The notes under the pieces: generated by a model
Databases searched by the model: none
Seen by the model: the letters and a program-made list of their open reading frames with translations, nothing else
What the model was told of the DNA's origin: nothing
Shown here: positions 4,137-37,014 of the stretch, in pieces
How positions within the stretch are numbered: the first letter of the stretch is position 1
How the letters are laid out: each line of letters begins with the position of its first letter
Made by a program: the position numbers and the translations under genes
From: Climacium dendroides
Lineage: Eukaryota > Streptophyta > Bryopsida > Hypnales > Climaciaceae
Length of the DNA: 64,000 nucleotides
Direction: 5' to 3'
Assembly (NCBI GenBank): GCA_950106755.1
Contig: OX467086.1
Location: 13,534,001-13,598,000, forward strand

Positions 4137-5873
4137 GAGGCTTTCAAATGTGTGACTTGCTAGCATGTGGCCATGGACTAGTTCATATGTAATGAACGTC
4201 AAGGACATGGATAGAATGTAAAGGTGAAACAAGGAAATGCATAGTCATGAAATGAATAGTAATGAGGGTGTTTCGTGAAGCCACTATCTAAAAAGGGAAG
4301 AAATTGTTCCTGGGACGTTGAAGTTCCCCACTTTCATGACATGTATATAGATACAAAGACTACACAATGTTCACGTGATGTTCCACTATGAGGAAGCATA
4401 TTTTGTTTTTCATTTGCAGCATACAGTTACTACAAGGTTGCATAACAGTGGACAATGGAGTGCCGTTTGAAATGCTAACGTTCCATTGCTTATTTCAGGG
4501 CATCAGTGCTTGCTAACTATACGCAAGAGGGGTGGGCGTTGCTGGAAGGAAGTTAAGGAAGCCATATTGAGTGTCCTTGGAGCATTAAGTGTTCACCAAC
4601 TATGTGCTTGAAGATTCTACACGTAAACAAGAACTGATGTGCACTGAGCCTGTCATAGCAGTGAAATAAAAAAGATTTTGAAGGTGAATGCAAATATGCT
4701 CAGTGTCAACGCGCATGCTTCAGTAGTAGGCGAAGGCCTCCATCGTAAGTGAACTCCACTTTCCTTGCATAGATTCCATTTCTCATTCCTAGGTGATGTT
4801 GTGACATTTTGGTGTGGCACTGTAGTTTGCAAACAGGGGACCGTTTTCATAGAAATACAAGGCATTCACTAGAAAGAAGAGGACAATTTCAGGGTGGCTC
4901 TAACCTTTCCTTTCAAGAGAAAATTCCAGAGGCTTGAGCACTAGTTGTGAAGTTAATTTAATGTGAAGTCCATTCGGATAGAGGATTTTAGCATTTTTGT
5001 TGAGAAAAACCACAAGGCTATAGGACTAGTTGATCATGTGCTGGAAGTCCTTTTGGACTTTATGAAAGCACGGTTGCTGAGAAACTTATGTGCCTTACAA
5101 GGCCTCACTGATTTCTATATTTATGCTTACTAGAATCTCACATAAGGCTTCTTGTTGGTTAAATGACAATGCAAGGTGATGTATGAAATGTTTGGTGTCA
5201 TTGCCAAATTGTCTTTGGCAAATTCTCTTTAGAGTTCTGATTCATTTTGAAGTTGACTTCAACAGAGATTGGTTTCTAGAAGCAAGTGCACACAATTATT
5301 GATCAAGACCTTCTCTAGAGTTCCAAGTTAGCCACAGCAATTAGGTCTAAGTCCAGTGGCCAAAGGTAGTTGACAAACTCTTCAATGAGACTACTTTGTT
5401 GTAGCTTATGGGGCAAGCACTTTAATACCACAACAATCTTTTATTATTATGTTTTGAAGCCACGCTTCTTTCACTTGACAAATGACGACATGTTTCTTGT
5501 TTAATGCCAACAATTCTGGTCATGTACACACATTGGAATAGAGAAATACATGCATGTAAGATGCTTTTTTGTTTGGATGCCACACCTCTGCTACTACATA
5601 GATAGACTTACTGTACGAACCTAGTCATAATGAGCACACCTTCTTGTCATGCATGTGCAGACTTTGAAGAGCACAATCATTGAATACATTGCTTACGTTT
5701 AGTGGCAACGTGCTCTTCTAGAGTGGTGGACACACACCTTGAGACAGATTCACGTCACACCTGCACGTACATGAACTTCTGCAATGTCCCGAATTGAACG
5801 GAAGCATAGCACCCGCGTGCGCATAGCAGCTGATGGCCGCACACTATGACACATTCCCGCAGGTGACCTCATT
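4137..5873. other. Spacer upstream of Tnp2, no supported gene
   Basis: No coding stretch is convincing. The segment probably holds the leader, 5' exon or intron sequence of the CACTA element. A candidate splice acceptor (TTTTGCAG) lies immediately before the Tnp2 open frame at about 5,879. Confidence 0.35.
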
Positions 5874-7563
5874 TTGCAGACAGAGTTGAGGATGGCAACA
5901 GAACAAAATTTGCGCTCCTCTCCTTGCCCTTGCAAGGACTGCCATGGTATTCTACAAAAAGGAATAGATGTGATACGAAAACACCACAGCACAGTTGGTC
6001 GAGATCCATTCCTCACAAAGTCTATGCTGGGAGGAGATCCCAATGAGGGATATCCACCTCGTGGAATTTGGGTTGAAGATGCCATTTATGATGACGACAT
6101 TTTAGATGACAACACGACAAATGTAGTTGACATTGAGCACGTGGAGGGCATCCCGGATGAACAAGGCACTGCTGAGGCTGCAACTAATCCTCCTCCTCTA
6201 GACGAATATCATGAGGTGCACAGACAAGTGATGGAGGCCCTGGACAGAGGGGACGCTCTTCACAGAGACAGTGTAGACATAGAACCGACACAAGAGAATG
6301 ACAACATAGAGAGCGACGGCATTGATGGCTTGGAGGAGTTGTATGAGCAAGCAACAACACTTGTATATGCTGACGCGAAGACTAGTGTTGTGTCCACAAT
6401 AGTTGTCATGTTGAACATGTATCATGTTTTTCGAGTGAGCAACAAATTCACTGATGAACTACTTCATTACTTATCAGAAGATTTGTTGCCTATTGGAAAC
6501 AAACTTCCCAATAGCCATTACGCAACACGGAAGACAATTCGGAGGTTGAGGTTAAACTACAACAACATACACACTTGCCCAGATGACTGTATTCTTTATG
6601 ATGTGGAGCATGCAACTCTAAACAACTACACCAAGTGTTCGAAGTCTCGATGGTTCGATGGGAGCACAAGCATTCCAGCAAAGGTCATTCGTCATTTTCC
6701 GCTCATACCAAGGTTGAAGCGAATGTGGCGTTCAAAGAAAATTGCCGACATGTTGACAAGATATACAAAGCATGTGAGCACTGACGGTGTTATGAGGTCT
6801 ATTGTGGACAGTCCAGCTTGGAAGCACATTGATACACATCCAGCATTTGGAAACTTTGGCTCTGAAAGGAGAAACTTGCGTCTTGCCTTGGCATTGGACG
6901 GGGTTAATCCTTTCAAGTTGAACAACACTAATTGGTCAACCTGGCCAATTTTGATTTTAATATACAACTTCGAGCCATGGTTTGTGACCAAGAAGTTCTT
7001 CATTTCATTGTGCCTACTCATTTCTGGCAAGCATTCACCAACTGCAAAGAACATAGGTGTTTACCTACGTCCACTATTAAATGAATGAGCTTTGGCGTGG
7101 TGTACCAACATTGGACTTCACACAAAATGAAGGTCAACGACGTTTTCAACTACGAGCGGTGCTGATGTGGACGATTTCTGATTTCCCAGCATATGGTCTT
7201 ATAGCGGGAGTGACATGCAAGGGGTACAAGGCCTGCGTATGTTGCGGTCTGGAGACAGACTCACGAATGGCGAAAACAGGTGATGTTTCCCTGAATAGGC
7301 AAAGCAAAGGGTTAAAAATTGTATATGGAGGAATGCGTCGTTTTTTGCCAAGGCACCATCCATACAGGCGGAATAAAAGGTTCAATGGCAAGATAGAGCA
7401 TCGTTGTCAACCATGTGTGATGACTAACCTTGATGTTATGAGATATGTTGCGTGGAGGCAATCCTATCTTGATCTAGGTAGCAAAGAAAACAGTAAGGAC
7501 GACCCAATGCATGTCACAGGCATTAAACAACTACCTGAGTTGTTCATCCTTCCATATTGGCTG

Positions 7564-7882
7564 GTAAGCATGACTTCATTAATTATGGACTATTTCATGA
7601 AATGCCAACAAATGTGAGAAGAGGCTTCTGCTAAAACTCATAACTAAATATAGCGAGGACGAACATGTGAATGTCAGTCCCAATGTTGGAGTTTTTCATA
7701 GCATAAAGCCTTCAACACTGTGGACACTAAGTTTGAACAGTCGATGTGTGATTTTCTCAATTGTGACAATGAATTTGTTGTGCATTCTTGTGTACTTCAT
7801 CATTGGGGCCGAAACAATGGTTGCTTGACTGTATTGGAAAAAGCAAGACTGTAAGCCCTTTCTTCGTTGCTTGTGGGTGCAG
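7564..7882 (+). other. Intron in Tnp2 copy 1
   Basis: A GTAAGC donor follows the codons for PYWL, and a GTGCAG acceptor precedes HLLAPHILDVMH. Removing it restores the family's usual LPYW...LDVMHxEKN spacing. This explains the apparent stop near 7,615, which is inside the intron. Confidence 0.75.
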
Positions 7883-8230
7883 CATCTTTTGGCTCCTCAC
7901 ATTCTAGATGTCATGCACTGCGAAAAAAATTTGTGTGAGAACATTGTGAAAACAATAATGGGCATGAACGATAGTGCCGGTAGTCGACAAGATGTTGAGG
8001 ATCAACAAATGCGAGAAGAAATTTGGTTGCAACCTTCACGTTGCGAGAGAAACGAATTCTACATGCCACCAGCACCATACGTTTTGAAACCAAACGAGAG
8101 GAGGGAGTTTGTCAACATCATATCAAATATCCGAACTCCAACAAACTACGTTGGCTCTATACACAAGCGATTGCAAGGCAGGAAACTGCAATACATGAAA
8201 ACCCATGATTACCATATGCTCATGCAACAG

Positions 8231-8609
8231 GTACTCAACTTAGTCCTTCAAACTTGTAGAGAAGATTCTAGCTATTGGAGTACAAGCAGCTAGGGTGCTT
8301 CTCTATTTTTTGTTGCTTGTTAAAACAAAGCATGCAAGAAGTAGGTGCTCTCATGAGTAGTTACTACAAACGTCAATCTGTATGATTTAGCAGTACCTTA
8401 TGATTGCCAAAAAATAGTGTGCGGTGTTACACATATCTTCAATAACTACCATTGCTAGTAATGCACAAGGGTCATGCTTTTTTTATGCAGTGGACTAATA
8501 GTTCTTTCAGACAACACTATTGAAAACAATAACAATAGAAACCTCCTAGATGCATGTGTTTTGAAAGAACATGTAACTAACACATTTTATCTTTAATTGT
8601 CCTCTACAG
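8231..8609 (+). other. Intron in Tnp2 copy 1, absent from copy 2
   Basis: The donor is CAG|GTACTC and the acceptor CTCTACAG|ATT. Splicing joins MLMQQ to ILPIAVRN in phase 0. The second CACTA copy (near 18,450) has the two flanking exon sequences directly fused, without this intron. Confidence 0.7.
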
Positions 8610-9128
8610 ATTCTACCGATTGCAGTACGGAATGTGTTGGACGAGAATGTTCGTTTGGCTATCATCCGGATTAGTAGAGTCTTCCAAAAGCTATGTGAAA
8701 AGGAGGTTTGCAAAGCAGATGAAGAGGAACTCATGAAAAATACTATGTTAGCAACTTGTCTGCTGGAGAAGGAATTCCCACCAACATTTCTGAACATCAT
8801 GTCACATCTACCTATACATCTAGTGCAACAATTATTTCTATGTGGACATGTGCACTGTCGTTGGATGTACCCTGTAGAACGATATATGAAAACTTTGAAA
8901 GACCATGTACGTACTATGGCTCATCCAGAAGGCTTCAGTACAGAGTACTTGAAGCAATACAAGGGAACAACACATTGTGTGTGGGACACAACAGAAGAAG
9001 AGCACATGCATGATGAGATTGTGAACGTTAATCGAAGGAAGAGGAAGAAGCTACCAGATGATGTTCGACACTATGCACATGCTTTTGTGTTGGACAATGT
9101 AGAGTCTTTACAACCATGGCGAGAGTAA

Positions 9129-9684
9129 GTGCTTTTTACCATTGTGATGTGAATTTCTGTTGAACAACATGTTCTTTCACAAGTGTTACGTCTATCCAGA
9201 AAGTGGTACCTCCATAACATACTGCACATCCCCAATGTAGAGGACAAAGCATTCATTTGAGGTCATGTCCTCTCCGATGCTTCTATAAGCTTCAACAGAA
9301 GCAACAATCACTCAAAGAATGTCACATTCTAAAGTTGTAGTGAATGGTATGTAGTGGACAATGTCCAGGATATTGTCATTTGTAAACAATATTGTAGGAT
9401 AGGAAATAAGACACTCTCATCTTAACAGCTCTTTTATGACATGATAGGAATTACATAGCAGCTAGGGAGCACGTTGGGTTCAGAGGGATGCATTCCATAT
9501 TGAAGCTCGCCGTATCCATGGAACTGCAACTATAAGGTATCCACCATAATTAAGTGATCTACCGCCTTTCTTGGAGTGGTTCACATCAGCTGTGAAGGAT
9601 GCCATACGCACAAGGGTGCACGTACAAGATAACATCCTTCAGTATGCATAACCACCGGAGAGGTATGCAACATCACATTGTCAC
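9129..9684 (+). other. Intron and linker between DUF4218 and DUF4216 parts, copy 1
   Basis: A GTAAGT donor-like site ends the DUF4218 frame at about 9,125. Coding-like sequence resumes near 9,450 with NYIAAREHVGFRGMHS and is interrupted by stops before the DUF4216 frame. Copy 2 has the corresponding NYVAHYLSIMHGT near 19,430, so the intron position is shared. Confidence 0.5.
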
Positions 9685-10068
9685 ATGAATGCATCTGGGA
9701 TGCATATGCGCGTCCGCAGTTCAGAAGATGCACTTGCTACTCAAGACTCAGGTGTGGTCGCGACCTTCACACGACAACTTCGTTGGGGCTTAATGAACAG
9801 AAGGCCAATAGAATGTAGCGATGATTACGTGGGTTACATTGAAGAAATCTTGGAATTGGATTACCAAAATCATTGCACTATTGTTCATGTTTGTGATTGG
9901 GTGAAGGCTACACGAGACATGCGTTATCCGACAATTGAACGAGATCGTTACGGCTTCAGCATCGCCAACTTCAACCACATGGATGGGAAGGTGCATGCTG
10001 ATTCCTTTGCGTTTCCACTGCACTGTCAACAAATATTCTCTTCGGATGACCCTCACAGATGTGGGTAG
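9685..10068 (+). pseudogene. DUF4216 domain of CACTA Tnp2 copy 1
   Basis: The frame carries the C-terminal DUF4216 signature of plant Tnp2 proteins: a TQDSGVVATF block, GYIEEILELDY, CDWVKATRD, DRYGFSIANF, and the terminal CQQIFSSDD that aligns with the family's QVFYxDD. Coding similarity continues past the stop in another frame (RRLFVRLMSEAD, near 10,070-10,130), which shows a second frameshift. It lies directly downstream of the DUF4218 part in the same orientation, as expected for a single multidomain transposase gene. The function of DUF4216 is not known. Confidence 0.8.
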
Positions 10069-10544
10069 AAGATTATTTGTAAGACTGATGTCAGAGGCAG
10101 ACGCAACGAAGGGAAATATGCCGAACTAAATCCCATTGTCACTCAAGTAGGGAATGATAGTGAATTCCAGGGACTGCAACCGCAGATGTTTTCAAAAGCT
10201 CTGAGAGAAGCAACAGCAGAAGGTGGCCACTACGTTGCTGCAGTCGAAGGTGCCACTCCTACGAACGTGGATGCTAATGAGCATTCATTATGAACATGTT
10301 GTTAGCTGTTGTATAATATGTTTTTCCAAGCAAATTGTACAAAGACTAACCACAAGACTAACCAGAACGGCAATTCATAAGTATATGACTGATTGGCCTC
10401 TTAGGATTTTGTGATGTTTATTCCATATGCAGGGTTTGCAATCTATAACTTCTACTTGAATGAAATGAGCTACCCACTTGTAATAAGAGGTTTTCCGGTA
10501 CATAGTGTAGAGCATCTGATAATACAATTGTGTTATTCTTCATA

Positions 10545-10860
10545 ATTGGGCAACTAACACCAAATGGAGTTTTAAATCTTTTGTACCAAAATTTCCACAA
10601 AACATGTGCCCCCATTGAGCGTACCTTAGAGTCCAAAATAATTCCCTGAATTTCAAGTACATGGTCTACATTTCTTTGCATAATATGTTTTTTTTAGCGT
10701 AGCATGCAGCTTAGACAATAGTAGATACTTCTTTGAAAGTTAATTTTTTAAGAATTCTAAAGTAGGTTTTGTAGGTTTACATGTACGTGGAAAGCTTTTA
10801 ATTTTTCCATTTACATTTAACCGTAAAGGATTATGATATTGTTTTCACCAAAGCAGCTCT
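10545..10860. mobile_element. Diverged left end of the TTAA-type MITE family
   Basis: The stretch aligns base by base, with divergence, to the left part of the complete element at 15,743-16,695: ATTGGGCAACT...CACCAAATGGAG, then ACATGTGCCC, then AAAGCTTTTAATTTTTCC. The terminal CCCCTAAAGGAC itself is not preserved. No matching right end is found nearby, so it is a truncated or old copy. Confidence 0.6.
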
Positions 10861-11752
10861 AATATTACCATGTGTAATACAAGGACTAAGTTTTAAGAAA
10901 AAACTTGGATACTAGTAACCATAAGATCTTGTATTAAACTTGTTTAAGAATATATATGTGATAATTTCTATCTAATATGTACATGAACATTTAAATTTAC
11001 AGCACCACTTTAATAGTTTATATTGCTAATTTGGTACTTCATAAATAATAAACAACAAGAAATTGCTTGCCACACAAAAATGCAAAAATTTCTTGAAAGG
11101 ATGCTACTATGAGCTAATAACATTTTCTTTTTAAATTAAAGGCTATGATTTCACCCCTAAATGTCAAAGACACCAAATTTTATTATTGATAGAACTTTAA
11201 AATTAAATAAAACCTAATCAAGTTGCTTTTTTAGTAGTTTTTATTTCTGAATTTCTTTAAAATTTTAAATTTGACATGAAAAATCCAATTTTGAAAATGA
11301 ATGATTTTCTGTTTTTATTCAAGATTTTGTACAAAGGTATCTATTGCAATCTTCACTTTTTGTAGTCTTCAAGGCTATATCCTATATTTAATTTTAATTA
11401 TTTTTTCATATTCATTTTTCATCTTATGTTTCTTTATCAATAAAGAGAATTTTCACAATATTGAATAATATGAAATACATCACAACTAAGTTCACTTCAC
11501 AAGATTTAAAGTGTCTTAGAACATAAAGATTTCAAAGTCTAACATATCCAAAGAAAGTTGAAAAGCATAAAACATTCAAATGAATGCATTCCAATACAAT
11601 GAACACATAGAATCAAAAAATATTTCAAAGTACATATACAAAGTAAAGTTAATACACTAATTAACACTATATACATACAAATCATACACAAGTGTTTTGG
11701 AAAGTGTAATGTGCAACTAAAAGAAATCCAAAATGTAGAAATGTACAACTTC
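10861..11752. other. AT-rich spacer, no gene
   Basis: This is a very AT-rich stretch with scattered short frames only. It lies 3' of the dioxygenase-like gene and may include its 3' untranslated region. Confidence 0.4.
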
Positions 11753-13147
11753 CTACTTAAAGGAACTTAACTTAGAGTGTACAATTTGTTGCACACCACG
11801 CACTCTACTGGCTAAAGGAATACATGTGGTAGCTACCATATGATGTAATTTTTTCAACCTCCGAACAAGTCTTTCATTCACTTGAACGGAAGTTCCAATC
11901 CTTGTAAACTCAGGACTTGTAATAGAAGGAATAGTGCAATGAAAATCAGTCTTTGATCGCTAGAGGATCTCAACAACTCCATCACAAGCACTAAAATCTA
12001 CAGACATTTTGTAACTTCCAAGTAGAAATTGACCTCCTTCACATTGAAAGCCAGATTTTAAGGAAGCTAATTTACCACAATCATTATGAACGGGAGCCCA
12101 CAAACCATATGTGTAGGAGTTGAAATCCTGGTCTGTATGGAAATGATTACAGAAATCAAATATCGTATATGTCAAATTACTGCAAAACGCTTGCTGGTCC
12201 TTGTGAGATTTATCAAACTCCAACTGTGCAAGAGTAGGTACATCCACTGCTGCTACTTCATCTTGAGTATTTTGGAAAAGGATTGGAGTCAAAGCGTTGA
12301 ATTTAGTATTGTAGAAGGAAGAGATCCATGACACGAACTTTTGATCAAGTTTCCACTTCTTGATACTTGAAGCATCTTTCTGCATCTTAGGGTTGGGAAC
12401 ATATCTTCCAAAACTAAGACCACCATCTGTACCTAAAATTACAAGAGAATGATAATCAGTATTGTGTAGAATTTCCAATATTATATGTGTATAGAATCTA
12501 TTACAGAAAGCAAAATAGTTAAAAAGCAATCATATTAGTTATTGTCCAAAGAAGTGAAGAAATTAGGCATACCTGGCCTCCAACCCAATGCATACATTTT
12601 TCCACCTCGTTTAGCACTATTTCCCTTAATTTCACTTGCACCACATTTGAGATGAAGAAGAGTTGTTGTCAACTTCTCAAAATCAGCAAATTGTTTTTTT
12701 GACATTTCAATAAATGGAGTGAAACAAACTACAAGTACTATATTCTTGGATTTCTTGTCTTGTACAACAACAAGATTCTGATGGAGACGTGTAAAGTCTT
12801 TTGGGATAGAAGTGTAAAAGGTTCCTTCCAAATTTTGATGACAGTGATTCCGTTGCATCACAAAAGCACCTACAAGAGAATTTTTATGGTTTGTCATTAT
12901 TTTCCAAGATGACATAAGGAAAAGAAAATGAAAAGTTGAAAAGATTCTAAGAAATAATCAAACATATATAATCAAAGTGCATGCTAACAAAAAAAAATAT
13001 TGTTTATTGAAACAAAATCTACTGTGGAAACATGTACCTTGAACACTTGTTTGTACCAGTTGAAATTCCCGAGTGAGTTTGGCTTTCTTGCAAGCTCTTG
13101 AAGATCGGATTTGTTCCATTTTATATTTTATACTTCCTTTACCTTTC
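11753..13147 (-). pseudogene. Tet-like (TET/JBP-type) 2OG-Fe(II) dioxygenase gene with one in-frame stop
   Basis: Three exons read in phase on the minus strand: 13147-13038, 12869-12573 and 12432-11753, with GT-AG borders (donors GTACATG and GTATGCC; acceptors TTGTAG and TTTTAG). Exon 2 encodes FYTSIPKDF, then LVVCFTPF and GGKMYALGWRPG. Exon 3 continues TDGGLSFGRYVPN, NHFHTDQDFN, YTYGLWAPV, CEGGQFLLGSYKMSVDF, CDGVVEIL, a TAG at 11960-11962, then FHCTIPS and FTRIGTSVQVNERL. The HTD, FH and FTR positions match the HxD...H...R iron and 2-oxoglutarate ligands. The order of conserved blocks resembles the Tet-like oxygenases described in fungi, where they accompany transposons; such enzymes oxidise 5-methylcytosine. 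Angiosperms lack TET enzymes, so the gene is unexpected. The TAG stands where relatives have Trp. The 5' end is not found; more exons probably lie upstream. The family call rests on recalled motif similarity. Confidence 0.55.
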
Positions 13148-15738
13148 CTGACAAAAGTAAACATTACACACATTACAAAGTGTAATAACAAAAGTGGAGC
13201 ACTGTATAGTTCAACTTCAAAAAGAAACTTACAAATCTAAGAAAAAAAATACATTTTAGTGTACAAAAGCACATATTACTTGTATTCTGTATCAAAATGT
13301 GCATTTAAAATGGAAAGTAAAGTATGAAAGTTGTAGAATCACTTCTTCTTAAAGAAGGACAATAGTAACACAAAATTAAAAAGAAACTAATGGCTTTAGG
13401 GTTTAGTGTTTTAAAGTCAGTATATTCTAAAGAATATAAGAAAAAAATATGCAAATATATTACTTTCATGGCAGAAACTGGGATTGTACAAGTCCAATGA
13501 ACAAGTTGGAAATGACATGCAGGCCAATTGTCTTCTTGTCAATAACTAACCCAATTCAAAAGAAAATACTTAGTTTCCACAACATGTAAGCTAATTGCTT
13601 TTTTGCTTTTAGAAAAAAAAACATAGGTAAGCAAATCACTTGGAAACTAAATTGTATATGGAAATGATAAAGAAAAAACCAACAATTCTTGGATTTGCAT
13701 ATAATTATTATAAAGTAAAAACAACAAATACATAAAGCACAAAAAGGAGTAAAACCAAAAAAATGAAGGATAATTCACAACAAAATAATTCAAAATTTCC
13801 ATTACAATAAATTATGATTCTTTCAATATCAAAATTCAACCTTAAACCCAAATACAAAAATGCAATCTTAATAAATTGTGAAAACACTAAAAGGGAAAAA
13901 TTGCAAGTGGTTTTCAAGCAATTTCAATAGTAGAGATTAAATTTTCAACACCAAACATCTCTATGGATTCAAATCTCACCCTAAAGCTCAATAAAGTGGA
14001 TGATTACAAGCTCATACTTAGAAGATTAGCTTGACTATAGTAACTCTCTCTTCAATATGGACAATTACAAAAACTTGTAATGTGCACTAGCAATTTTTGA
14101 GAAATTCGGGAGATTTCTTCTTTCGTTTTTAGCAGCTCCGGGCTCTACTTTCTATAAATTTTCTGTAAATTTTTCTCGTAGAAAGGAAGAGTTGAAATCT
14201 GGTTTGTAAATTATTTGCAGCATGTGCAGTTTGCAGGACCCTAATGTACATCAATGGATTTGACAAAGAGACGATCTTTTCTTTTGCTTTTTCGACACAA
14301 ATGAAGAATGAAGTTACCATAAGAAGCCATTTCGTTGCTTGCCCCAACCAATATTTGCTGACATCACTTGATTCCTCGAACCTATTGTCCTTAATCCCTA
14401 ATCTCGCTTCATGGAGCTTCAAGATGTTGAAAAAACTCCTGGATTTTAGAAAATGATGTATATTAAAAAAATTGAAATTTTGTACAATCCAATCATCCAG
14501 TTCGGTTAGTTTTGGCTTTCAATTCTTTTTTCTTGGAAATGTCAACAAATTTGAGAGAAGTTCATATTTTTTTAATTTCGTAGGTACAGAATTTCTATAT
14601 TAGCCTTAGATTATGAAAGAAATTTTTGCGAGAGAAACAAAGCATTATTCATCTTTTTATTGATGTTTCTATTCTAGAAGTTGCATTCTTTGCAAACAAA
14701 GCTCATCAATCATCCAACATTGTTACAATCTATAAATCCTATGGATAATATTTTCTACAATTATTTCCAAGAATACTAACAGTTGGTGCTTGCTATGCTA
14801 CACACTTATTATAAGAATTTTATAAGAATTTTTATGTATTAGATAAAATACAGAACAAAAATTTCAATAAATCTTCAAATAAAAGTTATGAAATTCTTTG
14901 TATGATTTTGAAAAAATTAAACATATATTGAAATGCATAGTACAAATTTATTGAATGATGAATGAAATATATGCAATGGTGGAAACTATTGAAGATACAC
15001 ATACATTATAATGCATGAGAAATTTGTCTCAATTGTTACAAACAATGGCAATCCAAATTGAAGAATTGAAAAAGAAGAACTTGTGAATCTCAAGAACTTA
15101 ATAAACATTTTAATTGTTGTAAAATCCAAAATCACTTCAATTGATTAAATTTTTTAAAATCATGTGGTAGTAGCAATAAAAAATTAAAATCATGAAAGCT
15201 GAAAACTCACAAAAGTACTAAATCATGGAAGTGTAAAGCCAAGAGAAGCAATGGAATTGCTACTTCTAATATATCACCCAGTGCATCTTCTTTAATATCA
15301 CCTTAATACTAACAACTACTTTATTTCTATAATATCATCCTTTGTACAAAGTGATATTATAGAGGTGTTGTGAATTGCTACTCTATTATAATTTCTATGA
15401 AAGCATGATTGACAATATTTTTACGAAATATTTCGAAAAATTATGTTAAAGAGTAATTGAAATCATTATCATGCATTCTATCAAATATATCAAAATTTTA
15501 CTAATATGAAATACAATGAATGTGTATTATAACAAGTATCCACTCCTACTATTAATGGTAGCATTTGTGATATTACAGGGGAAGTTATGATTTCTGTAAT
15601 ATGACTAGATAAAGTATTCTTCACTTCTAAATGCTTAAAACCAAAAAAATTCAAACTCAATTAAGTGCAAGAAAATTTCAAAGTGGGGAAATTCATTGAA
15701 AACCCCCATTGTTATAACCTTAACATGCCTTGAGGAGT
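13148..15738. other. AT-rich region upstream of the dioxygenase-like gene
   Basis: No gene is firmly supported. A minus-strand frame at 14129-14422 (97 codons, with WLGQATKWLLMVTSFFICVE) could be a 5' exon of the dioxygenase-like gene, but I see no motif or clear splice link. The rest is AT-rich with short direct duplications such as TTATAAGAATTT near 14,810. Confidence 0.35.
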
Positions 15739-15742
15739 TTAA

Positions 15743-16695
15743 CCCCTGAAGGACCGAACTGCATTTTTTGGCAATATAGAAATTTTGGGCAGCTCACCAC
15801 AAATGGAGTTTTTATTCTATTTTGCTGAAATTTTAACACAACATGTGTCCAAGGAGTATCTTTAAGGCCCAACAATTTTCATAACATTTGACTACATGGT
15901 TCAAAAGTTATTGTATAATATGTAACTTTCTATGGTTGGCAGGCAGCTTGGGCAGAAAAAAAAACTTCTTTACAAATTAATTTTTTTAGAAATTAAAATT
16001 TGAAATTGGTTTTTTAGATTTATATAAACTTGAAAAGCTTTTAATCGTCCCATGTAGATCAGTGAGTCAAAAAATATGAATTGTTTTAGTTTGTGGGAGT
16101 TTGTGGGTTGTCATTGAATCTGTACTCCAAAATAAACTTTGAAGTCCTTTATATTTAAATGAATTTTCAATATTTTTTGGAAAAAATAAAAACATTGGGT
16201 GTAGATTCTTTATTACGACATTACTACCATCGAGATTGACATTTTTCAATTCCATAAATAAATTGTTAACAAATTAGTATTTTGAATCATTTTCTACTCC
16301 TTTCTATGTACTATTTTTTTCTAGATGTTGTATAATTCCAAATGACTTGAAATTTTTCTAGTGTATAGCCAACTTGACTTGAAGAATGATTCCTTAGAGG
16401 AACAACCGTTTTGGACATTTTTTCATAAAATGTGACCTCTTGAAGTTGAGTTGCCCTGATTTTTATAGGACCAAAAAATGGAAATTTGTCACTTTAGATG
16501 CTAATATATTGCAATCTATGCAGTGGAAAATTTTGAAATTTTTTCCACATGTTCTAAAAAAATATAACTACAAGATCCTACGGTTACATATGTCCAAAAA
16601 TATATTTTCTTAAAAATTTGATACTTACACTAGAAATGGCAGATTGGTAGTTTTGGAGCAATTTTGATGAAAACACAGTTTAAAACATTTAGGGG
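15743..16695. mobile_element. Complete TTAA-type (piggyBac-like) MITE, 953 bp
   Basis: The left end reads TTAA|CCCCTGAAGGAC and the right end ACATTTAGGGG|TTGA, an imperfect terminal inverted repeat beginning CCCC. The flanking tetranucleotide is TTAA on the left and TTGA on the right (one change). There is no transposase frame inside. The left half recurs at 10.5, 36.6 and (inverted) 39.4 kb, and the right half at 22.7 and 61.1 kb and (inverted) at the right edge. TTAA targets with CCC-starting ends are characteristic of piggyBac transposons; the assignment is inferred from the ends only. Confidence 0.65.
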
Positions 16696-16699
16696 TTGA

Positions 16700-18124
16700 C
16701 AACTTAGTTTTTAATTGCATTTAGTAGACATTCATAATTACATGCAATTAACAACAAATGAATGCTTCTTACCATGTCCTAACGTTTGCACTTGTTTTCG
16801 AGCGTCTTCTTTTTATTATGTTGTAGTTATACAGGTTCTATGCTCTCACAAACACAACATCCGTACATGTTGTTCCTTTAGAAAAATTTCAGAGGACCTG
16901 CCCTAGCCTTCTATGTTTTCCATATTAGGGCAGCATTTTCTTTGGACCCACAAGCTATTTTCCGAAATTACCCAAAGTCAAAAAAAACCTAATTGCCACT
17001 GTGGTAGCGCAACATTCCTATAGATGTTACAAACTGCACGGACATGTTCTTAGACACATCTCCCGAAGCATTCACAGCATTGAAAACATGAGCTCGTTTT
17101 AACCGGCCTCTAAGCATGTTCTCCGGTACGTCCCCCGAAATTTGCCTTCAAGCAGCCAAAACTTAGACATGGCCTCCATGTTCCGTCAAACATCCTCGTC
17201 ATAGTATAACATCAAAAAAAAAACTCTTTCTTCTAGTGATATGAATATGAATAGTATTCGTCCCTTTTTTTTAAAAACATAATTATTTCAATCTTTGAAG
17301 AACCAAATTAACAGATGTGAAAGAAAAAATTAATTGCTTGCAGAAAAAGAGTACATAGCTTTGTTGAATAGTACTGACCGTACGTACATGCTTTTGTAGG
17401 CAAGTCATTACAGTGGGACGCTGTTATGGATTGCATTTTCCATAGGCACTTTGGTAAATGCTGATTCTTTAAGAATTTAAGTGTTCATGGTCAGTGAGTG
17501 GATGTTAGAGTCCTTTTTGCAATTAATCGTTGCTATGAAAACATTAATTTTGCATGACGGTGAAACACATTGGGATGGGAGAGTTGTCTAGCAAAGTCAA
17601 AGTGGTTAGTCTATTTGTAATGTTAGTAGTAGCTTCCTTAAAGTAAGCAATATAAGATATAGAACCAGAATGGTCGAAGGTACACTACGACTGAAGAACT
17701 GTGGGATTTTTTTTAGTGAACAGATTCTATAATAGAGATTAATGTGAATTTCATAGTACGATGTCAGAATGAGCATGGAGGATTTTGACGATGCGCATGT
17801 AATGCATAAATCACTAGTAACACAATTGAAAGTGGCAAAGAACTTCAGTTGGATCAAAAATGAGCTGAGTATTTTTGGTTCAGGAGCATGTGTCCAATGT
17901 CCAAAGCATTATTGTAAACTACTTGCATGAATTGCGATAAGATAATGTCAATGCATAGAATTATCATGTGAATAGAATCATGTGAACGGAAACGCATGTG
18001 TGGAGGTCATAGAGGGGCAACTGTAAAAGGAGATTGGAATTCGATCTTGTGTATAATACTGAACAGATGAGACCATTAGCAATTAAAGCATGTCTTGTGG
18101 ATTTTTGCAAGGTCTTCTTTGCAG
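16700..18124. other. Spacer before CACTA copy 2, no gene
   Basis: No coding frame is supported. The region 16,900-17,215 is locally less AT-rich and contains two similar short phrases (CATCTCCCGAAG and CGTCCCCCGAAA). The Tnp2 core that should precede copy 2 is missing, so copy 2 is 5'-truncated or its 5' part is unrecognisable. Confidence 0.35.
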
Positions 18125-18999
18125 ACACACGCTTGACGTCATGCATTGTGAGAAGGATATATGAGAGACTCTTTTGAAGTTTCTATTGGGGGAAAATGAC
18201 AAACAGTAGTGAGGCTAGATTTGGAAGAGCGTCATCTTTGAAATCATCTTTGGCTGAAAGAGACGTCTCTAGGGAGCAACAAATTCTTCATTCCAGATGT
18301 AGAGTATGTTCTCTCTCCCGCTAACAAGGCCACTTTCATACAGACTTTGAGGTCCCTAAAAACTCCGAGCCAGTACGTGTCAAATATTAGACAGAAAATA
18401 GATAAGGGGAAGCTAAGGGACGTAAATCACATGATTTTCATGTCATTATGCAATAGATTTTGCCTTTGTGCGTTAAAAACATAAAGAATCAAGAACTTGC
18501 ATCCGCTATCATTAGATTAAGTAGGATTTTTCAGAGAATTTGCGATAAGGTAATTAGCAAGGACTCGAAAAACCAATTGTTGGAAGATGTAGCTGAGACG
18601 ATGGTGTTATTGGAAAAGCAGCTACCACCAATAGCATTCAATATTATGTTGCATTTGCCGTACTACATAGTGCAAGAGGTTTTCATTTGCGGTCTAGTTC
18701 AAAAACGTTGGATGTATCTTTTTGAGTGATATTACAAGGAACTAAAAAGTTATGTGAGAAACTATGCCAAACCTGAAGGTAGTATGGCAGCAAGCTACGA
18801 GGTGGAAGAAGCTGCAGGATACGTCACAGAGTACATGCTCAATTACAGTGCCACATGCTCTAGGGTGTGGGACTCAGAGGAGGATTCCAAAATGATAGAC
18901 AAAATCTTGGAAGGCCGTGGTATCACGAGGGCACTGACAAACGAGCGCAGAGAGCTTTTTCACAATTTTGTTATAGACTCATCGGGATTCTATAAATAG
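18125..18999 (+). pseudogene. CACTA Tnp2 C-terminal part with DUF4218, decayed copy 2
   Basis: After a TTTGCAG acceptor the sequence resumes the Tnp2 C-terminus at LDVMHCEKD, exactly where copy 1 has an exon border. Frameshifts and stops follow, with recognisable pieces (VLSPANKATFIQTLRSLKTPSQYV). The DUF4218 frame begins at about 18,455 (ILPLCVKN) and contains IIRLSRIFQRICDK, MLHLPYYIVQEVFICG and KRWMYLFE. A TGA then replaces the Arg codon that is CGA in copy 1 (ERYM). The frame resumes with YYKELKSYVRNYAKPEGS and YMLNYSATCSRVWDSEED. The intron present in copy 1 before ILPI is absent here; the junction codon is TAG instead of CAG. The copy is clearly non-functional. Confidence 0.8.
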
Positions 19000-19426
19000 T
19001 ATCGTCAGTAAGTGAATCATGTTTCATTATGTCTTCTTGTTTTTTAGTGTGCATATACTAAAAAAATAGAAACACATGCAGGCATTGTATAAGTGAACTT
19101 CATAAGGAACAGTAAGACTTCATCAAGTTCAAAGGTGGTTAGCATAAGAAAAACATGACAATGTAGACAATCCAAAAAAAGTAGTTTGCTGAAGACAAAG
19201 CCAATTGCTTTTCTATGATTTTGATCAAAGTTAAGCATTTTAAATGATTAGTGCGCTTGCAATATGTAATGTTGAGGAAGAGAAGGGTCAGGCAAGGGAG
19301 ACCTTGATGAAGTTCGTGGAATGTGGAACTTGGAAGTTTGTTGTGCATAGAAGCATGTGGTTGCAGTAAGATGGATTGCACGTAATTGAATTCGTGTTTG
19401 CAGGGGATGCCAGAATCTCAGAAGTA

Positions 19427-20985
19427 GGAATTACGTAGCCCACTATCTTTCAATCATGCATGGCACAGAAATGCGCTTTGTAGAGCAATGTGGGCATTAT
19501 TTGTTAAGTTGATGTAGGATGGCCACCTTTTTTGAAAAAACGAATGTCATGTACAATACACTTACATGTAGATGTCATTGCAAATTCCAAGCACGTCTGA
19601 TTCAAGTTATGAACATGCATAGGTGAGGTTGTTTGTATATGCTTGGAAAGTTAGTCATTGATAGAGTAAGTCCGTTCTTTTAGGTGGCAGCTTTTGTCAC
19701 AGAAAATGTTGGGCACCTAATTGTCGTTTAATTCCAGGTTCGATTATTGTATGTTTCAAAGGTCAGTATGCAAAGGTGGATTCGAATGAAACGGACTAGT
19801 GCGGCATCAGTGAAGTCTGGAAGTACGAGTCCACTGGAAAATGTATCTGCTTATAATGAAGTAGAAGCTCATAAGAAGTATAAAATCTCCATGTTTAAGA
19901 AGGTTGTTTCACGTCCTGCAAACGATATTCGCAGCCAAAGGACCACAGAGACAAGCAGAGGAGGATCTGGCGTAGGCGACATCTGCAGAGATATGGCAAG
20001 AAGGGGACCCCCTATCCAAGTAATTTATGTAAGTTTTCTTCTTTTGCAAATTGGTTTGAAGAAGTCGTTGAGGCGGAATTACTGGCGGAGATGAGGTTCT
20101 TGACATAGTAATGGACATTTCAATTCCACCGAATGTAAAATGTAAAAAATTCAGGAGCATGTGGGCGTTTGGCTCCCATTTTCGAGTGGCAAGTTACGAA
20201 AAGAGGTTGGCAAGTCAAGACTCTGGTGTGGCGGCCACTTTCATTAGACCCTGGCGGGCGAGTACAAGGGACCGAAACCTCATAGAAGCAGACGTTGAGT
20301 ATATAGGGGAATTGGAGGAAATTGTAGAGTTGGATTACGCCGGACATGTGTTGTAGTCTTGGTGTGTCGGTGGGTTTGAGCAATCTACCATGGACCTAAC
20401 ACAACTGTGAAGAAGGACAAATGGGGTTACACGCTTGCAAATTTCCAATCATGTGAACGTTTTGGGAAGGAATCATTTGCGTTTCCTAAGCATTGCCAGC
20501 ATGTATTTTATAGTGATGCAATAGAAATGCTAGGTTAGAGAGTTGTTTTACGACCAGATGTTCGAGGTCGACGAGTTGATAATGTTAGTGAGGACACCAA
20601 CAATTCCTTCTTATTCTCGAGAGGGGATGACATTGATTATGAAGGTCTTTGGCCTCCTGCAAACATATCAGAGGACATGCCTGAACAATCGACAACACAC
20701 TATAAGAAAACTGTGTCTGTCGCGACATCGCAATTTGGACACCCGGACATCGCGCATGATGCGTTCTATATCTGGACTGATGTCCAATCACTTCGTGTTG
20801 TTGTGGACATGCCAAAAACATGGTACGTTGCATCAGATTTGCAGGCCCAGCATCGTGATGTCCAAAAAAACATCAATCAATGGGTAACTTCAGGAGTTGA
20901 CATGTGGCTGCCATCTAGGCGCAGGAAAGCCAGAGTGTCATTTTTTCGTCCATTGCCCGTCTATGATGTGGCATTTGACGTGTAA
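19427..20985 (+). pseudogene. DUF4216 and C-terminal region of CACTA copy 2
   Basis: Homology resumes with NYVAHYLSIMHGTEMRFVEQ near 19,430. A DUF4216 block follows at 20,160-20,356 (HFRVASYEKRLASQDSGV, YIGELEEIVELDYAGHV) and continues in shifted frames (KDKWGYTLANFQSC-like, then ESFAFPKHCQHVFYSDA near 20,480). A tail frame at 20,677-20,985 reads through SQFGHPDIAHDAFYIWTDVQ and ends in a basic segment (LPSRRRKARVSFF). Several frameshifts separate the blocks. The copy has the same orientation as copy 1, 10 kb away. Confidence 0.65.
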
Positions 20986-21430
20986 TTGACATGGCATGCC
21001 ACGTCGGTGCTCACGGAATTGGTTGTCATGGCATCCACGGATGCTGACGTGGCGTTTTTGGGGGCCACTTGCTTGGTCTGCCTAGCATTTTAGGATGTCT
21101 TCTGAGACATCGTTGTGGACGTCCAGGTGTCTTAAATGACATCAGGTGAAACAGTTGTATGCTGATTGAAATGTCCATCCGAGTATGTGGAGTTTGCACA
21201 TGTGTGCTTCTTAAAGCATACCCTGTCATAGGAGATGTCTGCTTGCACAAGCTAGCACAAGTACATGCTGGGGTAGTAGATGGCTTCTTGCATTGTAGGA
21301 TGTTAGCGGCGACGTCCACTTGTTTGAATTTGATCTTCGTAGAAGGAGATGCATTTATGAACACACTTATTTTTTGGGACATCTCCTGGAACGCATGTAT
21401 GCATTGTATTGGACGTTCTAATGTTGTCAA
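20955..21430. repeat. CACTA subterminal region rich in GACGT/GATGTC words
   Basis: Downstream of copy 2 the sequence becomes rich in short direct and inverted words such as GACGTGGCATGCCACGTC, GGATGTC and GACATC. Similar words recur at 25.2-25.87 kb. Dense short repeats of this kind near the ends are typical of CACTA elements, where they serve as TnpA-binding sites; the role is inferred. Confidence 0.5.
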
Positions 21431-21445
21431 TGTAGTAATATGTTG

Positions 21446-21590
21446 TACACAATATATAATATGTCATACAAAATACACCATACAAAATATATACAACATG
21501 CCATACAAAATACACCATACAAAATACAATATATATATACAACATGCTATACAAAATATATCATACAATATGTCATACACTATATTTATC
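21446..21590. repeat. AT-rich tandem repeat, unit about CATACAAAATACAC
   Basis: The words CATACAAAATACACC, ATATACAACATGC and ATACAAAATAT alternate about eight times with small variations. It is a short, imperfect minisatellite without coding potential. Confidence 0.75.
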
Positions 21591-22059
21591 AAGTATATTG
21601 AATGGCTCAAAAATCTACTTATTAACTAATGAAAAGACAAGCCTTTTATACTAGTGGGGTGTAGGAGGCATGAAAAACAATATGGGATATACAAAACTAA
21701 AATATGAGCAGCAACATAAATACAATGATGTCTGAAATGATGTTTTAAAAAACATTTACATGTATTAGTTATGTTTTTTTCGACGTCATTGTAAACATTC
21801 AAAAGAACATCTGTAGTATGAAATTAGACATTCACATCAATGTTGTTTTAAACATTTGCTTCAACAATTTCTAAATTATCTACAAATTTTATTTGTTATT
21901 TATGATGTCATGATGAACATTTGCATGTCATTTCCAACATATATGGGGATGTCTCCTTGAACATTTAATTGATAAAGTCACATCTATTAAATTTAGGTTG
22001 TTTGCAACATCAACTTCAATATAGTATGACACAACAATATATCCAACATGGAATTCCAA

Positions 22060-22704
22060 TTGTAGATTATATTTTTGTCTATCTAGAAAGCTCTGATTCA
22101 TTTCATTTGGATTTGTTATGAGAAAGTTATAGACATTTTTGTTTTTTAGGCAATTAGAGCATCTTCTTGAAAAAATCAAAAAAACAACTTGTTGGATGCA
22201 TTTCTGAATGCAATTTTTACAATTTTTCAAAATAAAAATTTCACGTCGTTTAGTTTACTTGCTAGAACAATCTCACCATTGGGATTAGTGCATTTTAATT
22301 CCATCTAAAATTTATTAATATTTAAGATTTTCCTTCTATCTCATATCTACTTCTACTTAACAATTTTCTTAAGAATGAAATTTAAGTCTTTTAATTTTTA
22401 ATTTATTTTCCTAAACTCTCAACTCAATTTTCTACTATAAATATTTAAATCTCAAAACTTTGTAGTGCAAAAATTTTACAAAGTCAAAAAATCTAGTCCC
22501 TCAATGCGCTAAAAAACTTGTTTTTTCCACTTTAAATCTATGCGGTCAAAAATTTTGAAATTTTTTCTACAATTTTTTCTACTTGTTAGGTGTAAGATCC
22601 TATAGTTAGATGTGGAAAAAAATTAAAATTTCTTTTACTCTTTGCTACAAAAATGGCAATTTTCAATGTTTTCTGGCAAAAAAAAGGCCTTGGTCCTTTA
22701 AGAG
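22060..22704. mobile_element. Right part of a TTAA-type MITE
   Basis: The segment ends in GGTCCTTTAAGAG|TTAA, matching the right ends of the family with an intact TTAA flank. It aligns over roughly 650 bp with 60,437-61,124 (shared words include TTGTAGTGCAAAAA, AAAACTTGTTT and AAATGGCA). Its left end is not clear. Confidence 0.6.
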
Positions 22705-22840
22705 TTAAGATGTCAAATATCTCAAAGTCCAAGAACACTAAAAAAATCACCCCACATTAGATATGAATGATTTGAAAATAATAAGTTAAGAAGGTGAAAT
22801 AGCAATAACAATTATTAAAATTTGATGCAAAATTTATGAT

Positions 22841-22890
22841 TTTAAACTAATAAAGTTTAGAATTTAAACTAATAAAGTTTAGAGTTTAAA
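22841..22890. repeat. 22-bp tandem duplication
   Basis: The unit TTTAAACTAATAAAGTTTAG plus two bases occurs twice in a row at 22841 and 22863, followed by a partial third (TTTAAAT). Confidence 0.8.
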
Positions 22891-23051
22891 TCTTAAGTTA
22901 AAAATAAATATTTTTATATATTATAATATTGATATGATTTTGTAAACCTTTTTTTATAACAAATCCATTCATCTAATTTATATAAAATTGTTATATAAAT
23001 TAAATCTATATAACTTATAACATTTTGAAAAAAATTCTGGACATTTTTTAA

Positions 23052-23279
23052 AACATCTGATGTCCACAACAATATCTTAGATTGCATCATTGTTTTTCAT
23101 AGCACCAATATGCTGTGACTGAAATTTAGCAATGCTTTCTACAACATCAAACCAAAATCTTTGCTTTTCCAGCGTCCGTCGACGTCACATCCCAATGTTT
23201 TCTCAGACGTATGATGTTATCTTGGACATACAACGTTTTTGGCCTGACATCAGAAAAAACACAGTTTTCTTATATGGTG
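23052..23279. mobile_element. CACTA right terminus, copy A
   Basis: About 228 bp are directly repeated at 25,654-25,869. The segment ends in ACAGTTTTCTTATATGGTG, a diverged CACTA-type terminus (CACCATATAAGAAAACTG on the other strand). Sequences beyond the end differ between the two copies, which marks this as the element border. Confidence 0.6.
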
Positions 23280-23556
23280 CAGTTGGTGAATGATAGGGAC
23301 TTTGATGGCCTACAACCACTGCAACAAGTCGTGGACCCGGTGCGCCAACCAGTAGACAATGGTGGAGAGTATGTTGCCGTAGTTAGCGATGACAGGAAAC
23401 ATAGGGTGTTCACATCAATGACATGTGTTTGCAGTGCCAGCATTTTGATGTCACGTAGGACGTCTGAGAAATACAAAGCCATCAGCATGTTCATGTCTTC
23501 CAAGTAGACCCGTTGCATCTTGAATGTGCATTTTGTGGCAGAGTTTGTCTTGCTTG

Positions 23557-24985
23557 GTGCTTGTAGTCAAATAAACTATAGAGGAAATGTGCACAATAGC
23601 TAATTTGGATAATTTTCCAAATTTTCTATAGTATTAGTGCATTTGTAGTGTTAAAACTTGGTTGTTACCAGTTAGCAAGACTTTACTATGGAATCTTATC
23701 AATGGATGTTAGTTGGTAGCGGATGAATGGGGTGCAAATCTATAGTAGCGGTTATTTACTTGTTAGGTGAACATGATGAAGAGGACAATTGTGAATTTCT
23801 AGAGGTAGTCTGAAGAGAGCCAAGTCTCCTGCGCGGTGTGGCCAGCAGTGTTAGAGTGAGCGATAGTTGTGGTGTGATGAGGAATTTAGTCTATAGTGCT
23901 GGTGTGTAATTTTGTGTAAGTGCTAGATCAATTGATTTTATGGAGAGAGACAGGGAAGAATGATAAACAATTGTAAATGTGTAAATGAAATATCATGTTG
24001 AAATATAATAGCGGAGTTGAATGGAGAATTGAAAGTCTGTGTGTGTTGTTTACAATTGAATTTGTTGTAGGTGATAGATCTTGTGTGGTTGAAATCTATT
24101 GTGTGAGATGGGAGATTGGATGTGCTGAAATCGTGTAGATTAATTGAAAGTGTGTGATTGTGTTGAGCATTGAGTCCATGGATTAATTTTGTGAAGAATT
24201 TCTATTGTTATAATAGAATGTGGATGTCTAAGTCTATTTGGGTTTTATTTGTCAACCATCTGATCAATAGTAGATGAACTGGATACATAGTGTATGTAAT
24301 GTTTTAGGAGTTTGAGACTATTGAGCATTGTTGGGTATGAACTGTGGAATTAATCTATAGGAATAGTGGGATTAAAAATTTATGGGGAGTGAGTCTGTGA
24401 ACTGGAATCATTAGAATTCAAGAATGAGTGATATAAAAGCAAACCGGGAGTTGTCTGAACTAAACCAAAAGAAATATAAATTTTGTAATTGATTGGATTA
24501 TTTTAAGCCTGAGTGTAAAATTAAGGAGGAAATTGCTATAGTTGGAAATGAAAACAAAGGTTCGATTGAAGAAAAGCTGGAGAAGACGTTGATAGGAAAG
24601 AATCAATAGTTGGTGAAAAGAGTATTTTGCAAATAAAGAATCAATTGGAGATGCTGGCCGCTTGAGTGGGAAGATCAATAGAAGACTGTACCAATGCGGT
24701 TGGTGAGGCTGACATGGGAGTGAGCAGACAAAGCTGAATCAATAGATTTACATGCAATTGATAAGTTTTCTGCCTTGATTATAAATATAATAAGCACGGC
24801 TTTATCCATTGTTTGAATTAGAGTGAAAAGTTCCCATTCCTTTAATTGTGCACAACCTCGGGTTAGAAAACAATCCATAGGAATTACCTATAGAGCACCC
24901 ATACCTCCCTGAGAATGAACTCTAACTATAGGAGTTTCACAATAGTTAAATCTATAGTAAATTCCAATCTACAGTGCTGCAAGTG
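23557..24985. mobile_element. Candidate nested TIR element with nine CTATAG hexamers
   Basis: The hexamer CTATAG occurs at 23576, 23626, 23740, 23891, 24355, 24536, 24888, 24926 and 24952, clustered towards both ends. The right end reads ACTATAGATTTAACTATTG on the minus strand, preceded by CACTGTAGATTGGAATTT. The left end has a similar GCTTGTAGTC...AAACTATAG. Subterminal hexamer clusters with CACTG-type tips suggest a small non-autonomous CACTA-like or related element. No coding sequence is seen. The borders are approximate. Confidence 0.4.
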
Positions 24986-25869: not shown

Positions 25870-28063
25870 ACAGCAAGGGAGGTCGAAAGAGAAGGCGGTT
25901 TCCACCAAGCAGTACACGAAAATGAATTTTTCGACAGAGCCTTGGGGGACTTGTCTAAGTCTGATTGAGGGATTGTCGTTGACAATTGTATTCTTTCGGA
26001 AGTCGGCATTAGTGGTGAGGAATACTAATAGTGATATGTGAAGTTTTTGTTCCTCGTTATTTTTGTATAAGAGAATTCCATGTGAAGAGCATTGGACAGG
26101 AATTTCTCACGGAAGTGTTTTTAGTGTCTATGTTTCAGTAGAAATGGTTTAGTCGTGGAAGTACTCATTTTCCTGGAAAGCAGGTAAGGAACGATTGAAA
26201 TGAAAGGGTATGCAACCTAAGAGCATTATAGACAACAGAAGGTTACATAGTCGTCAAACTTGAGTTGGTTTGTTTTTAAGTGAAATTTGTTTGAAGTGAT
26301 TGTCAAATAATTAGTGAGTCCTATTTTTAGAGGTTGTTTATTATAAATAGTGAGGTTGTTGCCTCAAAGTCTATTATGTAATTGAAACTACCCTATATAG
26401 CGCAATGAGGAATGTGGTTTTCGAAGACATGATTGTATTTTTGGTGCAATCTTTGTGGAAAATGTGAGTTCAGTTTGTGCTACTGAAGGTGTTGGATGTC
26501 ATAATTATAAATACGGTAGAAGGATTAAGTATTGCGAGCGATAGAATTGGATTCTTTTTTTCCTTTACGAGTTTTACAAAATTAGCCAAATGCCAAAAAA
26601 GTCATTTGTACTTCATATCATTCTTCATTTTGGACGACTGATGTGTAGGAACTTAGATGCAAACATAAATTGCTAGTCTGAAATTGGGATTGCCTTGAAC
26701 AGTCTGGAGACGATACTGTGGAGACAAGGTATGAGGATGTTTGCAGGACTCCGACAGTGGCGATGAGGTGCACATTGTCTACGGAAGTAGCTGAAGCAGT
26801 TCTGGACCAAGACAATTTGTTTGTCTTCTTAATGAGAGCCAAACTTGCATTCTTTTCTAGAGCTCACGACATCTGAAAGGTATTTGTTTTTCAGTATCAT
26901 GAATGATGTGCTTACATGCTTATAAAAATCTTGTGAATTACATCCTCTTGTAGAAGAGGATGTACCAATTTGTGAAAATGATGAAAGATTTGTAACATAC
27001 ATAAGAGTCTCTAGAATTTGTGCAAGAAATATACATTTGCATTAATACGAACACCTTTCGACAGCCTAATGTACAAGATTGTGTGGATAGTAACTCTAAA
27101 AATGTTAAAATTACCATAGTAACCATGTTGAGGTGAAAAGAGTAATTGATCCGAATAACAATTTTTTATGAGGCAAAATTGTAAATGTTGAAATAGTAGA
27201 TGTCTTTTTAAATGTTTTGTGTTTTTTCTTTGAGTCTTTGGCAAGCAAGGTATTGGAAAACAGTGAAGTCAAATGTGGTGATGTACGTCACACTCACTGA
27301 GAATGCCTTGTTGTGCTTAAGGCGACTGATATTGAATCGGAATGTGTTTTACATGCGAAGTTCGGTTATTTTAACATGAAGACAGACAGATAGGTGACTG
27401 AGGCAAAGCAAAGCAAGCAATTAGCATAAGTTTGTAGGTGAAGTGGCAGACATACGGGAGTGCACGCCAATGCAAACGAGGTATATAAACTAGTGATGAA
27501 AAGGAAGTACTGTGATTTACACAGACATTTAAGAAATCATGTGTAGGCTTATGCTGCATTTTCCATATAATTTGAAATCATATTTACGATTCGGTTGCAT
27601 TTTCAGTATAATTCATAATCATGTGAAAAGTTATGTATATTTTCATAATGTATGTGTAATTTCTAGAGACCTTGAATTTCTTTGTGCATCATAGTAGAAA
27701 CAATTGTGTCTGTTAATAAGGTTGCAGTTGTCATTGCAAAAAGACAGGCGTCTATTGTCCACAGTGATCATGTCCTCTGCTTTTTCGACGCACTAAAGCT
27801 ATTGAAGGTGCACGTCAATTTTTGCTTGTGCAACATCATGGTACCTGCAATTAGTGAAAAACGGAAGAGGATGAAGATTGATGATTTGCCGATGGTACAA
27901 GTGTGTTGTACTGTTCTGTTAGTTCTCCAAAAGCAAGTCATGTGTAACTATATAAGACCTCAAACAGAATGCAGGTCAGGGAGCTTACGCAATTAATGCG
28001 TAGAAATATATAGAATTTTTGTAAGAAAAGTTAGGTTGGAGTTCTAGTGCTTTGAAGCACATG
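25870..28063. other. No supported gene
   Basis: Only short frames are present. A plus-strand frame at 27682-27996 (104 codons) has no recognisable motif. No terminal repeats or primer-binding sites of retrotransposons are evident. Confidence 0.35.
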
Positions 28064-28203
28064 TATTGAAAGTTTGGAGGGTACATAAAGACATTATGTA
28101 TTGGAAGTTTGGAAGGTACATAAAGACATTATGTATTGGAAGTTTGGAGGGTACATAAAGACATTATGTATTGGAAGTTTGGAGGGTACATAAAGACATT
28201 CTA
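28064..28203. repeat. 35-bp tandem repeat, four copies
   Basis: The unit TATTGGAAGTTTGGAGGGTA followed by CATAAAGACATTATG is repeated exactly four times in a row (starts 28064, 28099, 28134, 28169). There are one or two changes, and the last copy ends in CATTCTA. Confidence 0.95.
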
Positions 28204-29896: not shown

Positions 29897-32734
<2,838 letters not shown>

Positions 32735-36606: not shown

Positions 36607-37014
36607 TTAACCCCTAAAGATAAAAACTGCGTTTTCTGGCAACATAGTGATTTTGGGCAGCTCACTACAAATGGAATTTTTACTATTTTTTACTGAAATT
36701 TTCACACAACATTTTTCCAAGAAGTAGCTTCAAGGCCCAACAATTTTCATAACTTTTGACAAAATTATTAAAAAGTTATTGCATGATATGTCATTTTCAT
36801 TGCTTGGTAGGTAGTCTAGGCAACTCAAAAAACTTCTTTAAGAATCATGTAGTCTAATTTTTTAACTTTTTATAGAACTTTTTCAATTTTTTGTGGCATT
36901 TCCTATATTATTTATATATATTTTGAGTATTTAGTGTTAAAGTAGTCCATAGTACACTAAAAGTTCCAAAAAGTCAAAAGATACTTTGGTAGATAGTCAA
37001 AATAGTAGTTAAAA

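Follow-up and report, generated by a model that had tools for sequence, protein, structure and literature searches.

Comparison with described TET-like systems

In fungi, TET genes are described as travelling in many kinds of DNA transposon, including EnSpm, and the same account presents the transposon-encoded enzymes as lacking experimental validation save for CcTET, a close AG-type relative (PMC12730594). Two residues of CcTet from Coprinopsis cinerea, Gly at H+5 and Asp at H+11, are tied there to recognition of N6-methyladenine (6mA) and 5-methylcytosine (5mC). For plants, passages in reviews call TETs unidentified or uncharacterised, and the question of their presence has a section of its own in PMC6949463. 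No report of a plant TET gene was found in the open literature searched; earlier family surveys may list plant members. Here we describe a TET-like gene at 11753-13119 on the minus strand of a 64,000-nt stretch of Climacium dendroides contig OX467086.1 (the window; coordinates are counted from its position 1). The gene is a member of the PF20515 family, and on balance we take it to be a copy, inactivated recently, of a spliced nuclear gene of plants; intact counterparts would act and spread as proposed below.

The spliced protein, translated with its premature stop read as X, matched PF20515 ("Tet-like 2OG-Fe(II) oxygenase superfamily", 2OG being 2-oxoglutarate) over model positions 2-211 of 211, at 163.1 bits (cut-off 27; E 1.2e-47); the exon 3 piece upstream of the stop scored 116.7 bits by itself. 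This match, together with three exons joined by GT-AG introns, establishes as real the Tet-like 2OG-Fe(II) oxygenase gene that a first-pass annotation had proposed from motifs. That annotation had named two profiles, and only PF20515 was recovered; PF12851 (Tet_JBP) did not match at E up to 1. Neither was the best match to another 2OG family such as AlkB or the prolyl hydroxylases, no Pfam family besides PF20515 being found at E up to 1. The family itself is already known and named; any novelty would lie in its occurrence in a plant.

The gene resembles PF20515 members in its full-domain match and in its HxD, distal His, and Arg, which stand at the family positions, whereas it differs in being broken by a stop, in lying in a plant, and in having two coding introns. 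Like the fungal PU-type transposon-borne TET/JBP genes (PMC12730594), it encodes an oxygenase with HxD and has CACTA/EnSpm pieces nearby; unlike them it shows no transposon ends beyond chance and has a plant host, the likeness being one of description. The hallmark given for the fungal PE type is HxE in place of HxD (PMC12730594), and the window gene has HTD. CMD1 of Chlamydomonas, a TET homologue from the green lineage, likewise has an HxD...H site (H345, D347, H397; PMC7854593), but a search of solved structures gave no sequence match to the window protein (0 at E up to 10). In contrast to metazoan TET1-3, the protein matched neither PF12851 nor the CXXC-finger Pfam family at E up to 1.

Gene structure and coding frame

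The spliced frame comprises 352 codons in three minus-strand exons. Exon 1 (13038..13119) begins at an ATG at 13119, encodes a basic N-terminus, and ends at a donor GT at 13037-13036; a further acceptor in the 5' untranslated region near 13147 is possible. Exon 2 (12573..12869) encodes the N-terminal part of the PF20515 domain, including GGKMYALGWRP, and exon 3 (11753..12432) the catalytic part through to the natural C-terminus and terminal stop. Intron 1 (12870..13037, 168 nt) and intron 2 (12433..12572, 140 nt) are both GT-AG, with 25% and 26% G+C, respectively, as compared with 36-42% in the exons.

The five motifs on which the first-pass annotation was built (GGKMYALGWRP, FHTDQD, CDGVVEIL, DFHCTIPS, and FTRIGTSVQVN) are all present in this one spliced frame, though the frame is interrupted at codon 284. 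The putative iron-binding HxD motif (12131..12139; His at codon 225, Asp at codon 227) lies upstream of an in-frame TAG (11960..11962) that directly follows CDGVVEIL, and the putative distal iron-binding His (11939..11941, codon 291) and candidate 2-oxoglutarate-binding Arg (11900..11902, codon 304) lie downstream of it. The three elements are thus divided by the stop and share no single uninterrupted frame.

The open frames are not due to chance, because frames so poor in stops were rare or never seen in 20,000 base shuffles. The coding frame of exon 3 holds two stops, the premature one and the terminal one, whereas its alternative frames hold 11 and 23, and no shuffle gave a frame with as few (two, terminal included); for exon 2, a frame without a stop arose in 34 of the 20,000. 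Additionally, BLASTP aligned residues 17-349 of the 352 with P0001, a relative treated below, at 45% identity with 8 gap positions, and this alignment crosses both splice junctions. Only about 11 residues, the last of exon 1, represent that exon in the alignment, and the exon 1-2 junction is therefore less well supported.

The gene is also poor in CpG (observed/expected 0.33 over 11753-13119; the window as a whole has 0.52, and the CACTA transposase pieces described below have 0.59-0.67), as is the AT-rich flank at 13200-17500 (0.40). The low CpG of the gene may possibly reflect long-term methylation.

Relatives of the protein

An initial protein search over 1066 candidates gave 8 relatives, and a profile search over 6097 extended these to 15, from genome and metagenome sources. 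At E up to 0.001, PF20515 was detected in 14 of the 18 alignment rows (15 relatives and three window pieces). Of the rows that carry a residue at a given catalytic position, those of the window counted, 10/11 retain the HxD His, 9/11 the Asp, 9/11 the distal His, and 8/9 the Arg. The exceptions are P0009, with Asp replaced by Asn and His by Tyr, and P0010, with the first His replaced by Asp; the rows of P0013, P0011, and P0005 are apparently misaligned or truncated at these positions. All four positions are kept in 5/15 relatives: P0001, which covers 95% of the query and is nearly full length, and P0002, P0003, P0006, and P0007, which cover 56-65%. P0002, P0009, and P0010 group together, with 62-79% identity, and of these three P0002 alone keeps the catalytic residues. 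P0004 is apparently frameshifted towards its end, and several other relatives are short. The picture suggested by these sequences is of a family made up of intact and decaying copies.

In P0013, the C-terminal part of the TET-like domain adjoins a BED zinc finger match of 15.9 bits, which is below the cut-off of 20.6; BED fingers are common in hAT transposases.

Neither viral contigs nor one scan of genome contigs yielded relatives, a phage search with P0001 as query found none, and no viral fold matched at E up to 0.001. A viral or bacterial origin of the gene was rejected on the lack of viral or phage relatives and of a viral fold match, though an unlisted family is possible.

Proposed function and substrate

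An intact protein of the family would probably stand alone as an enzyme about 350-385 residues long. Its Fe(II) is most likely held by the His-x-Asp motif and the distal His, and its 2-oxoglutarate with the help of the conserved Arg; oxygen activated at this site would then oxidise a methyl group on a DNA nucleobase. By analogy with CcTet, NgTET, and TET2, the likeliest substrate would be 5mC in DNA, with thymine, 6mA, and RNA as other possible targets, and a 5mC-oxidase activity is accordingly proposed for the family as an analogy.

We see as possible, though short of likely, that the family is instead a TET-like group of 2OG oxygenases acting on a target other than 5mC: thymine, as in JBP; 6mA, as in CcTet; or RNA, as in FTO. 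The top structural neighbour of the predicted fold is FTO, but by a hair, with FTO, NgTET1, CcTet, and TET2 tied within 1 Z unit. Described relatives do have broad chemistry, in that CcTet is reported to oxidise 6mA as well and CMD1 to produce 5-glyceryl-methylcytosine (5gmC; PMC12730594), and an NgTet enzyme is reported to act on thymine (PMC12344493). However, the residues that PMC12730594 connects with 6mA in CcTet (Gly at H+5, Asp at H+11) are Phe and Gly in the window protein by ungapped count, an assignment that a gap could change.

Relationship to transposable elements

The TET-like gene sits between two decayed CACTA transposases. The first (5850..10293, plus strand; Transposase_21, DUF4218, and a sub-threshold DUF4216) lies tail to tail with it, and the second (18090..20601, plus strand) has the same orientation as the first and 29-49% amino acid identity to it over matched coding-strand pieces. 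The transposase pieces lie in several frames, for which introns may account in part. We treat the first transposase as a neighbour and its membership in one element with the TET-like gene as a candidate arrangement.

The first-pass annotation had raised a transposon-borne oxidase as one possibility, and here no transposon ends beyond chance were found around the gene. Terminal inverted repeats (TIRs) were sought between 8500-11750 and 13125-20000 as 12-bp inverted ends with one mismatch allowed and a target duplication of 4-9 bp, giving three candidates; the best of these, at 11436-14664, has an imperfect duplication of 8 bp and was equalled in 5/60 shuffles. CACTA-type end pairs (at least 13 of 20 bases matched) were screened for a 3-bp target duplication. 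Those enclosing the first transposase and the gene numbered 21, as compared with a shuffle mean of 11 (range 1-24; 4/100 reach 21), and none of the 21 had the duplication. Eight pairs enclosed the gene alone; a single one (10021-23898, 13 of 20 bases) had a duplication, as occurred in 12/100 shuffles, and it starts inside the remains of the first transposase. We read these candidate ends as chance, though a degenerate CACTA end is possible.

A further explanation, which we keep in view while doubting it somewhat, is that the gene is a dead insertion once carried by a DNA transposon of plants (CACTA or another type), for which it would, as in fungi, have erased methylation. It would agree with the reported placement of fungal PU-type TET genes in EnSpm, hAT, Harbinger, IS3EU, Helitron, and other elements (PMC12730594). 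The flanking CACTA remains, the truncated, apparently frameshifted, or active-site-altered relatives (P0004, P0009, P0010), the continuity of some predicted relatives across the site of intron 2, and the BED-like match next to the domain in P0013 all point the same way. However, in addition to the chance-level TIR and CACTA ends, the gene retains two coding introns, it has one lesion whereas the CACTA pieces are spread over several frames (in part maybe introns), and no larger fusion protein with the TET-like domain was found among 4505 candidates. Under the reading of an inactivated plant nuclear gene, the family in plants probably behaves like a gene confined to certain lineages, some of its copies intact and others decaying, akin to the TET genes on fungal DNA transposons.

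These data make the PF20515 family in plants a concrete candidate for the open question of plant TETs and raise the prospect that the fungal pattern of transposon-linked TET genes extends to plants. A stronger proposal, which we advance only speculatively, is that some plants, perhaps non-flowering ones, have working PF20515 DNA oxidases captured or spread by transposons, of which the window holds a freshly dead member; if true, such enzymes could account for the disputed 5-hydroxymethylcytosine and 5-carboxylcytosine in plant DNA. As the window copy is broken, the value of the finding rests on the intact relatives and on a lineage still bearing them.

State of the window copy

Because the stop falls between the HxD and the distal His and Arg, the copy as assembled is, judging from its coding frame, unable to yield a complete enzyme; a product ending past HxD at codon 284 would lack the second His, an iron ligand, as well as the candidate Arg for 2-oxoglutarate binding. 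Of the earlier proposal of a TET-like gene in a land plant, the part that stands is a PF20515 gene in plant surroundings, and the part that falls is a copy with a complete active site. The stop is a lesion and not a natural end, since the frame downstream of it reaches a C-terminus that aligns with those of P0002 and P0003; to our knowledge, a TAG followed by CGA is no read-through context. Over residues 17-349, aligned with P0001 by BLASTP, no frameshift or second break was seen, and with the frame otherwise intact to the family C-terminus, the loss therefore looks recent. Taking about 3.8% of point changes to create a stop and assuming 0.1 indels per substitution, the probability of at most one stop and no indel falls from about 0.32 at a neutral divergence of 1% to 0.10 at 2% and 0.002 at 5%. 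So few lesions being improbable at higher divergence, it is probable that constraint on the gene lasted until recently, that the gene is a recent arrival, or that its stop is an error.

The last of these we judge unlikely; on that view the locus would hold a functional gene, and the stop would be an error of sequencing or of the consensus, or else an allele that segregates. The unbroken remainder of the frame, running to the family C-terminus, would fit such an explanation, but relatives with altered active sites (P0009, P0010) make a true loss plausible.

Genomic setting

The surroundings of the gene are those of a plant genome. A homeodomain (E 1.9e-14), adjoined by a basic zipper stretch, is followed 6.4 kb further on along the same strand by a MEKHLA domain (E 5e-8), a combination that we take to be that of class III HD-ZIP genes. 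By this combination the host would be a streptophyte and most likely a land plant; the zipper may be of a non-seed-plant type. This class III HD-ZIP-like gene spans 46560-53547 on the minus strand, and each of the three pieces has an open frame of its own. A search of the window allowing 3 mismatches found no miR166 site; the miR166 site often spans an exon junction.

The gene is flanked by plus-strand copies of a dispersed repeat, 3' of it at 10546..10845 (67% to a copy at 15785-16087) and 5' of it at 15738..16109, with the same family recurring at 36607-36845 and, in reverse orientation, at 39074-39437. The direct repeats at 10546 and 15785 were rejected as long terminal repeats (LTRs) around the gene; because the repeat occurs elsewhere in the window in both orientations, it was read as dispersed and as no proof of an LTR element. 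Pairwise matches link repeats at 10546-10845, 15738-16611, 22060-22709, 36607-36845, 39074-39437 (minus), and 60434-61129; the unit, up to about 0.7 kb, is possibly an LTR or similar to a miniature inverted-repeat transposable element.

It is highly improbable that fungal contamination or a chimeric contig put a rust-type TET gene into the plant assembly. In favour of it, rusts live in plants, PU-type TET genes are reported from the Pucciniomycetes, the rusts (PMC12730594), and PF20515 presumably covers the PU type. The 31% G+C near the gene is below that of the CACTA stretches (about 40%) but equals that of other window stretches, such as those at 22-24, 28-30, and 32-34 kb, and contamination is argued against by the related CACTA pieces on both sides of the gene and by the one dispersed repeat family that flanks it on both sides and recurs at 36.6-39.4 kb.

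Several further features were observed in the window. A minus-strand open frame of 624 residues at 33246-35117 is rich in Ser and Asn and matched no Pfam family at E up to 0.01. A RING-finger frame (42021-42458, plus strand; E 2.7e-6) is likely part of another plant gene, as is a sub-threshold EF-hand frame (32366-32734, minus strand; E 3.1e-4) that is centrin-like by eye. A 35-bp tandem repeat in about four copies lies at 28061-28235.
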